From Myxococcales bacterium (GTDB lineage: Bacteria > Myxococcota > Myxococcia > Myxococcales > 40CM-4-68-19), in NCBI GenBank assembly GCA_020201435.1, contig JAIVGS010000018.1, positions 1 to 42,583 on the forward strand: 42,583 nucleotides of DNA, read 5' to 3'. Position numbers and translations under genes: made by a program. The notes under the pieces were generated by a model. That model ran no database searches and was not told the origin of the DNA. It saw nothing but the letters and a program-made list of their open reading frames with translations. Below, piece by piece: positions 31,465 to 33,939 of the stretch; within the stretch, counting starts at the first letter, position 1, and every line of letters starts with the position of its first letter.

Positions 31465-32439
31465 ATGCCAGCCGCCCGCAAGCGTCCCGTCACGAAGTCC
31501 GGCAAACCGCGCGCCCGCAAGGGAGTGAAGCTCAAGCCCACCGACCTCACGCCGGGGCAGTTGAGGCTCGCCGAGGTCCCGGAGAATCTGCGGGAGCTGG
31601 CCGCCGCCGTCGAGGCGGACGGGGGATCGGTGCTCGCCGCGTATCGCGAGCCGCTGGGTGGAAACGCCTTGCTCTTTTGCGCGCTGCCCGTCGACAAGGT
31701 CGAGCCGACCGCCTTCCAGCGCGACGTCTCGGACGCCCACGTGCTCAAGCTGACCCGCGCGATGGACAAGACGCGCCGGTATCTGGATCCGATCATCGCC
31801 GTACGGGAAGAGGGCGGATTCCGCACGCCGAACGGCGGCCACCGGCTGACGGCGCTGAAGGAGCTGGGCGCGAAATCGATCCTCGCGCTGGTCGTGCCCG
31901 AGCGCGAAGTCGCGTACCAGATCCTCGCCCTCAACATCGAGAAGGCGCACAACCTGCGCGAGAAGGCGCTCGAGGTGGTGCGGATGTACCGCGATCTCGC
32001 GGCGCTCGGCGCCGATCGCAAGGAGAGCGACTACGCGCTGGAGTTCGAGGAGCCCTCGCTGGTCACGCTCGGATTCGCGTATGAAAAGAAGGGGCGGTTC
32101 TCCGGCGGCGCATACTCGGCGGCGCTCAAGAAAGTCGACAAGTATTTCGAGAAGCCGCTTGGCGACACGGTTCCCGAGCGCGAACGTCGCGCGCAGAAAC
32201 TGCTCGAGCTCGACGAGGCCGTCAGCGCCGCGGTCGACAAGTTGAAGGAGCGCGGGCTGACGTCGCCGTACCTGAAGGCGTTCGTCGTGGCCCGCGTGAA
32301 TCCGCTGCGGTTCATCAAGGGCGAGCCGCCGTCGTTCGACGACCTGCTGGACACGATGACCAAGCGGGCGCGGGGCATGGATCCGGCGCGCGTCAAGACC
32401 GACGACCTCGCGCGCAGCGGCGGGCCGCCCGAAGAGTGA
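31465..32439 (+). CDS. ParB-like nuclease-domain protein
   Basis: A 324-residue protein with a basic N-terminus (RKRPVTKSGKPRARKG) and a ParB/sulfiredoxin-like domain: LPVDKVEPTAFQRDVSDAHVLKL, YLDPIIAVREEGGFRTPNGGHRLTALKELGA, where GGHRLTAL is the nucleotide-binding motif of ParB N-domains. The C-terminal half is helical without a clear helix-turn-helix, so it is not a normal chromosome-partition ParB. No parA is nearby. A CTP- or DNA-binding role is possible. Confidence 0.75.
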   Translation: MPAARKRPVTKSGKPRARKGVKLKPTDLTPGQLRLAEVPENLRELAAAVEADGGSVLAAYREPLGGNALLFCALPVDKVEPTAFQRDVSDAHVLKLTRAMDKTRRYLDPIIAVREEGGFRTPNGGHRLTALKELGAKSILALVVPEREVAYQILALNIEKAHNLREKALEVVRMYRDLAALGADRKESDYALEFEEPSLVTLGFAYEKKGRFSGGAYSAALKKVDKYFEKPLGDTVPERERRAQKLLELDEAVSAAVDKLKERGLTSPYLKAFVVARVNPLRFIKGEPPSFDDLLDTMTKRARGMDPARVKTDDLARSGGPPEE

Positions 32440-32487: not shown

Positions 32488-32868
32488 ATGGGCGCGGTGG
32501 CGATCGGGATGAAGGATTTCCAGCAGACCGTGGAAAAGGGCGGGATCGTGCTGGTCGACTGGTGGGCGCCGTGGTGCGGTCCCTGCCGGTCGTTCGCGCC
32601 GACGTATGAGGAGGTGGCGGAGGCCAACCCGGACGTGGTGTTCGCCAAGGTCAACACCGACGAGGAACAGGAGCTGGCAGGCGCGTTCCAGATCCGCAGC
32701 ATCCCGACGCTGATGGTGTTCCGCGACAAGGTGCTCCTCTTCGCCCAGGCCGGCGCGCTGCCGAAGTCGGTGCTGGAAGAACTGCTCGCCAAAGTGCGCG
32801 CGCTGGACATGGAAGCCGTCCGCGCCGAAATCGCCAAATCCGAAGGCGCCAACCCGCAACCGGGCTAA
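32488..32868 (+). CDS. Thioredoxin
   Basis: A 126-residue protein with one thioredoxin domain; WWAPWCGPCRSFAPTYEEV holds the CGPC active site and SIPTLMVFRDKVL the cis-Pro. A short extra C-terminal tail follows (about 15 residues). It is cytoplasmic and reduces disulfides. GAGGAGG at 32474-32480 precedes the ATG. It faces the SelW-like gene across a 75-bp palindrome; both are redox proteins. Confidence 0.95.
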   Translation: MGAVAIGMKDFQQTVEKGGIVLVDWWAPWCGPCRSFAPTYEEVAEANPDVVFAKVNTDEEQELAGAFQIRSIPTLMVFRDKVLLFAQAGALPKSVLEELLAKVRALDMEAVRAEIAKSEGANPQPG

Positions 32869-32885
32869 AGGCAAGAGCAGAATCT

Positions 32886-32960
32886 CACCACGGAGGCACG
32901 GAGGACACGGAGATTGGCCTTACAAAACGAAAACTCCGTGCCCTCCGTGCCTCTGTGGTG
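32886..32960. repeat. 75-bp palindrome of CACGGAGG words, two-way terminator candidate
   Basis: Left arm 32886-32912 (CACCACGGAGGCACGGAGG...) pairs with right arm 32934-32960 at 25 of 27 positions, with a 21-base AT-rich loop. It lies between the 3' ends of the thioredoxin and SelW-like genes. Repeats of this word are widespread in environmental bacteria, so this copy is one of a known type. Confidence 0.85.
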
Positions 32961-32965
32961 TGCCT

Positions 32966-33190
32966 TTAAAGGTCGCCGAGTCTCGCGCGGACCGCCGAGA
33001 CGATCGCGTCTTCGGAGGGGAAGTCGCGCTCCTTGCGGGCGACCACGTCGCCGTCGACCTTGACGATGAACTGGCCCGGCGCGCCGACTTCGATCTCGGC
33101 CTTCACGCCCAGCTCCTTCTCGAGGACAGCCGCCGCACGGACGGCTCGAGGCTTGTACCCTCAGGAGTTGCAGTATTCGATCTTGATCAT
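32966..33190 (-). CDS. SelW-like (Rdx family) selenoprotein with in-frame UGA
   Basis: Reading from ATG 33190, MIKIEYCNS is followed by TGA (33163-33161), then GYKPRAVRAAAVLEKELG, GQFIVKVDGDVVARKERDF and VSAVRARLGDL to TAA at 32966. The Rdx/SelW family has the redox motif CxxC or CxxU in this place; here it is Cys7-x-x-Sec10 if UGA is read as selenocysteine. The downstream half keeps the family's GQFIVKVDGDVVARK core, which would not persist if the gene ended at UGA. A plausible SECIS hairpin lies just after the UGA. The protein is probably a cytoplasmic glutathione- or thioredoxin-linked thiol oxidoreductase, 74 residues. Selenoprotein machinery is not in this window. Confidence 0.88.
33119..33163 (-). 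promoter_or_regulatory. Candidate bacterial SECIS hairpin after the UGA
   Basis: In the minus-strand RNA, the six-base stem GCCGUC/GGCGGC has loop CGUGC (33135-33139), 21 bases after the UGA, within the 16-37-base window known for SelB-dependent elements. A lower stem CUCGA/UCGAG joins it with a five-base bulge on the 3' side. The fold was drawn by eye. Confidence 0.5.
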
Positions 33191-33240
33191 GCCGCAAGGA
33201 TAGCAGCGAATCGGGCGGCGCGCTTTGGCATCAATTCCCC

Positions 33241-33939
33241 ATGATTACTCCGCGCAAGGCCGCCGATCGCTTCCACAGCCAGATCGGCTGGCTCGACAGC
33301 TGGCATACGTTTTCTTTCGCCGATCATTACCATCCCGACTGGCTCGGCTTTTCGGCGCTGCGGGTGATCAACGACGACACCGTCGCGCCCGGCCAGGGCT
33401 TCGGCGCGCACCCGCATCGCGACATGGAGATCGTCACCTACGTCCTCTCCGGCGGCGTGCAGCACCAGGACTCGAGCGGCGGCGGCGGCGTGATTCGCCC
33501 CGGCGACGTCCAGCGGATGAGCGCCGGAAGCGGCGTGGTGCACAGCGAGTTCAACGCCTCGCGCGAGGAGCCGGTGCACTTCCTCCAAATCTGGATCGTG
33601 CCCGACACCCGGGGCCTCCCCCCGCGCTACGAGCAGAAACATTTCGCGCCGGCCGAGCGCCGCGGAAAGTTTCGGCTGCTGGCGTCGAAGGGGGGCCGCG
33701 ACGGATCGGTCGACATCCACCAGGACGCGTACGTCTGGGGCGCCCTCCTGGACGGCGACGAGAAGATTTCGTTTGAGCTCAAACCATCGCGGAAAGCCTG
33801 GCTGCACGTCGCGCGCGGCTCGCTGCAGCTCAACGGCATCGAGCTCGGCGCGGGCGACGGAGCCGCCATCGCCGACGAGCGCCTGCTCCAGCTCTCCGGG
33901 GGACGCGACGCCGAGGTGCTGGTGTTCGATCTGCCGTAG
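33241..33939 (+). CDS. Pirin family protein (quercetin 2,3-dioxygenase-like)
   Basis: A 232-residue double-cupin protein. GFGAHPHRDMEIVTYVLSGG holds the metal histidines, and QRMSAGSGVVHSEFN completes the site. The second cupin is shorter. Members can oxidise quercetin or act as redox-sensing cofactors; the role here is not evident. It is transcribed divergently from the SelW-like gene, 50 bases apart. Confidence 0.93.
   Translation: MITPRKAADRFHSQIGWLDSWHTFSFADHYHPDWLGFSALRVINDDTVAPGQGFGAHPHRDMEIVTYVLSGGVQHQDSSGGGGVIRPGDVQRMSAGSGVVHSEFNASREEPVHFLQIWIVPDTRGLPPRYEQKHFAPAERRGKFRLLASKGGRDGSVDIHQDAYVWGALLDGDEKISFELKPSRKAWLHVARGSLQLNGIELGAGDGAAIADERLLQLSGGRDAEVLVFDLP

Follow-up and report, generated by a model that had tools for sequence, protein, structure and literature searches.

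The gene studied here lies at positions 33190 to 32966 on the minus strand of a 42,583-nucleotide stretch of DNA (called 'the window'). It is a selW-like selenoprotein gene of 75 codons including the stop, with an ATG start, a TAA stop and one in-frame TGA at codon 10 (33161..33163). When the TGA was translated as selenocysteine (Sec, U), a product of 74 residues was obtained (MIKIEYCNSUGYKPRAVRAAAVLEKELGVKAEIEVGAPGQFIVKVDGDVVARKERDFPSEDAIVSAVRARLGDL, followed by TAA), and this translation confirmed the frame and the TGA position given in the original prediction. The protein scored 43 bits against Pfam Rdx PF10262 (E 5e-11, cut-off 22.6) and 38.5 bits against TIGR02174 (CXXU_selWTH, cut-off 34.2), and because both cut-offs were exceeded the read-through frame was regarded as non-chance. 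Against the Campylobacter-type SelTWH equivalog NF041051 it reached 62.6 bits, below the cut-off of 88. The TGA occupied the second position of the CxxC/CxxU motif and was read as Sec10 of CNSU; the C7-N-S-U10 motif followed strand E2-6, and both C7 and U10 were invariant across the alignment. The SelW/Rdx identity and CxxU position proposed earlier were thus supported by both family models and by the motif. The gene was the only Rdx gene in the host genome, and the stop codon that stands for its selenocysteine had kept it from view. Two standard-code frames overlapped selW, one of 94 aa antisense to it (32960-33244) and one of 110 aa on the same, minus strand (32865-33197).

A thioredoxin gene (32488..32868, plus strand; TIGR01068, 104 bits) was situated tail to tail with selW and adjoined it in most of the window's family, in which the order pirin, selW, thioredoxin, ParB-like protein was mostly kept as well. 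The name ParB-like is a provisional label for 31465-32439, for which there was no Pfam match; no thioredoxin match was found in the neighbourhoods of two loci (L028 and L037). Since the thioredoxin gene is convergent to selW, the two are not co-transcribed, and thioredoxin was rejected as an operon partner; the neighbouring thioredoxin is a candidate partner of the selW protein. At the selW stop, between the two convergent genes, was a dispersed palindromic repeat of 87 nt (32881..32967, not assigned to a strand), a near-perfect palindrome (CACCACAGAGGCACGGAGG...CCTCCGTGCCTCCGTGGTG) with 30-nt arms that were 90% complementary and with a fold of -55.8 kcal/mol (z -9.6). Some 40 copies of the repeat are scattered over the genome (79 matches when both strands are counted), and the copy here may act as a terminator for both selW and the thioredoxin gene. 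Rfam miRNA models matching this flanking palindrome were discarded as chance matches.

Upstream of selW, a possible -10 box (TATCCT; 33191..33210, minus strand) was located a few bases 5' of the ATG, without a Shine-Dalgarno sequence, and a TTATC/TATCNT-like motif was found closely 5' of the ATG in most same-family relatives (upstream regions of L026-L033). In contrast, the Myxococcus orthologues carried a Shine-Dalgarno sequence (AGGAGG), which the window's family apparently lacks. A -10 box directly 5' of the ATG and no Shine-Dalgarno sequence would point to a leaderless or near-leaderless message, and the start of selW is possibly leaderless in the window's family. In a tentative extension of this reading, which we consider rather doubtful, a ribosome that has only just started elongation would have to insert Sec at codon 10 of a leaderless or near-leaderless selW mRNA, and the SECIS element would lie no more than about 65 nt from the 5' end of that transcript.

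The structure of the selW protein was modelled by AlphaFold, with 11 homologues as input besides the window protein (mean pLDDT 92.9; E2-6, H13-27, E31-35, E41-45, E48-52 and H60-73), and the model is predicted to adopt the thioredoxin-like b-a-b-b-b-a fold, the pattern described for SelW/Rdx proteins (PMC3527542). In a structure search the best PDB match was 3dex (TM 0.87), and the matches came in the order of SelW-related bacterial proteins, mouse SelW and MIEN1, and thioredoxins; by sequence, the PDB entries 3dex and 2ljk were matched, and mouse SelW (2npb) gave a weak match. The fold and the position of the CxxC/CxxU motif were shared with SAV_2001 (3dex), 2oka, 2fa8, 2ojl, mouse SelW (2npb) and human MIEN1 (2ljk), although the hosts and sequences of Rdx proteins of known structure were otherwise distant (about 20-34% identity). 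In the alignments, 3dex and 2ljk have Cys at the position where selW of the window has TGA.

Downstream of the TGA, the apical hairpin of a bacterial SECIS element was identified (33128..33146, minus strand), consisting of a 7-bp stem (33146-33140 with 33134-33128) and the loop CGUGC (33139-33135). The stem began 14 nt past the UGA, the UGA-to-loop distance was 21 nt, and the 33-nt element had a folding energy of -13.6 kcal/mol. By direct comparison, the hairpin fell within all published bSECIS limits (loop of 3-9 nt, stem of 4-16 bp, 16-37 nt from the UGA, MFE <= -7.5 kcal/mol, and G among the first two loop nucleotides; PMC13188914). Taken alone, and because the region is rich in GC, the window hairpin showed no extra stability relative to dinucleotide shuffles (z about 0) or to synonymous recodings, 37% of which reached it; an Rfam scan of the selW gene at a loose threshold returned no SECIS family. 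As folding of the single sequence did not speak for the hairpin, the evidence was sought in a comparison of homologues.

The same hairpin (7 bp, loop C-G-U/G-G-C, 21 nt) recurred in 32 scanned loci besides that of the window, which together make 28 distinct sequences, and every close homologue had it in the same position. Over 23 distinct sequences, a count that leaves out L024 and L035 with their different hairpin, all 161 cells were standard pairs; shuffles averaged 96.3%, and none of 500 reached 100. Compensated changes were observed at two stem pairs (G-C to A-U, and C-G to U-A), and pairing fell to 24-75% when the stem partner was shifted by 1 to 3 columns. The loop Arg codon was CGT in 23 and CGG in 5 of the 28 distinct genes, and CGC in none, against an Arg codon usage in the window of 60% CGC and 4.5% CGT; the following Ala codon was GCG in 28 of 28. 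This codon choice shows a strong synonymous-codon constraint at the hairpin. The hairpin of suitable size and distance named in the original prediction thus proved right by comparison of homologues, while one sequence alone gave no evidence for it. Two more distant Rdx genes (L024 and L035) had UNY, not UGY, after Sec, and a hairpin almost equally far from it whose loop was GGUC or GUC, respectively; since these loops differ, the SECIS sequence has changed while Sec was kept by the gene. An 8-bp hairpin in the same place in the Cys homologue (L023) was reached by synonymous shuffles 56% of the time, and a fossil SECIS is not claimed there.

The host, judged by the matches among relatives and by kinship labels, is a myxobacterium-like soil bacterium of Myxococcales type. 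Its genome (4.76 Mb, 96% complete, 363 contigs) encoded SelA (480 bits), SelB (310 bits) and SelD (354 bits), and one tRNA-Sec (73 bits, anticodon UCA). The search for selA-selD and selC, proposed earlier as the check on which the gene would stand or fall, did not refute it: it found selA, selB, selD and tRNA-Sec (UCA) all in the window's own genome, so that gene, TGA, conserved hairpin and a full Sec pathway are, in sequence, all in place. In-frame TGA codons were found in two further genes of the host: selD (L018), in the segment SHGSGUACK, which corresponds to the usual Sec/Cys site of SelD as in E. coli, and the gene of a formate dehydrogenase (L077:885), in RVUHGPTV. With TGA also in these two genes, the host genome likely has at least three selenoprotein genes including selW. 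For selD, a simple hairpin finder gave no clear classical SECIS.

Among 40 genomes of order-level relatives, the window's own included, 14 had an Rdx match. One TGA was present in 13 of these 14 matches, including that of the window, and selB was present in all 13 genomes. The sole Cys form came from a genome (G018) without selB and without tRNA-Sec, and the codon of the homologue in this sole Sec-lacking relative was TGC. The TGA of selW aligned to the TGC of L023 and to the Cys of 3dex, giving a Sec/Cys pair. Three draft genomes (G001, G004 and G010) contained a TGA-selW and selB; no tRNA-Sec was found in them, the weak hits being read by ARAGORN as tRNA-Ser, tRNA-Leu or tRNA-Arg, and the missing gene, being short, likely fell into gaps of the draft assemblies. 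Second tRNA-Sec hits in some relatives were dropped, as ARAGORN identified them as tRNA-Ser, tRNA-Leu or tRNA-Arg cross-matches. That codon reassignment or a generic readthrough puts some other amino acid, such as Trp or Cys, in the place of Sec has nothing particular in its favour and is on these data very improbable: TGA still serves the host as an ordinary stop, ending 7 of the 13 confident genes in the window, selA, selB and selD are present along with a cognate tRNA-Sec (UCA), the presence of the TGA tracks that of selB, and the SECIS hairpin is kept.

An evenly drawn sample of 193 Myxococcota genomes yielded 99 Rdx matches, located in 98 of the genomes; these matches are non-independent and mostly from one family. 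Exactly one TGA was contained in 96 of the 99 and no stop in 3 (by a count of stops within each match), and TAA or TAG occurred in none of the 99. Read codon by codon, TGA at selW codon 10 was present in 30 distinct loci, including the window; this count leaves out four loci missed by the motif filter (L041, L049, L053 and L056). Named hosts of TGA-selW were Myxococcus, Pyxidicoccus and Archangium species, along with 'Deltaproteobacteria' MAGs, the nearest at 80% identity; the gene of Myxococcus xanthus is locus L054. In one genome (G117, contig C44, 127685-128259), an Rdx gene with a TGA adjoined a second Rdx gene that had no stop, and the two may be a Sec/Cys tandem pair. A search of viral contigs found no relative.

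A Cys-coding TGC or TGT that had turned into TGA, in a pseudogene or through a sequencing error, would give the same picture if only one genome were at hand: one stop, with the frame intact elsewhere. A base-calling error is very unlikely, since the same codon is TGA in independently assembled relatives, and the whole alternative, to which we attach next to no probability, is already refuted in practice by the cross-species conservation of the TGA. The 30 distinct loci come from separate assemblies, their proteins in the aligned set are 46-78% identical to that of the window, and the frame is intact on both sides of the codon; exactly one TGA is also present in 96 of the 99 phylum matches. The overlapping 94-aa and 110-aa frames are both mechanically open, but it is hardly conceivable that either is the real gene in place of selW, as neither has a Pfam match whereas the TGA-containing frame has one, and the residues and codon pattern of the latter are conserved across the order.

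The frame at 33190-32966 is therefore almost certainly best described, from the comparisons above, as a working selW gene whose UGA at codon 10 would be read as selenocysteine. SelB with Sec-tRNA(UCA) would bind the hairpin whose stem starts 14 nt past the UGA, and would deliver Sec at UGA codon 10 in place of termination. The product would be a 74-residue thioredoxin-fold protein in which C7 and U10 cycle between selenol/thiol and a reversible selenenyl-sulfide. By analogy with its family, the selW protein is most likely a small thiol-disulfide (seleno)oxidoreductase; its expression, Sec insertion and redox activity are inferred from the family.

Bacterial SelW-like selenoproteins have been on record since 2005, when they were the most abundant selenoprotein family in the Sargasso Sea set (PMC1088965), and the original prediction was right in calling the family known. 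A 2006 study gives SelW for Desulfotalea and Geobacter, and the Anaeromyxobacter set that it lists is without it (PMC1794560); in Epsilonproteobacteria some SelW genes were in 2015 found to have been completely missed by annotation (PMC4607533). The window gene agrees with these bacterial proteins in family, CxxU motif, UGA-encoded Sec and a SECIS directly 3' (PMC1088965, PMC1794560, PMC4607533); they are often left unannotated, and selW of the window differs by host lineage only. Its orthologues with TGA in Myxococcus, Archangium, Pyxidicoccus and soil Deltaproteobacteria (L025-L061) are 44-80% identical to it and share the TGA, the hairpin and the spacing. No paper on SelW in Myxococcus was found in the open literature. 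The suggestion that novelty lies in the host is weak, since Myxococcus, Archangium and Pyxidicoccus have the same TGA gene, as do almost all of the sampled Myxococcota that bear an Rdx gene, and because its relatives carry the same gene the find is sound but ordinary. As SelW is known in bacteria and known to escape annotation, the gene will not surprise a specialist but is useful for annotation. The find leaves the present picture of selenocysteine decoding and of the SelW family as it was; it adds a sound selenoprotein gene that is probably unannotated, and the 96 of 99 Myxococcota Rdx matches with a TGA support reading the TGA-split Rdx genes of this phylum as selenoproteins.
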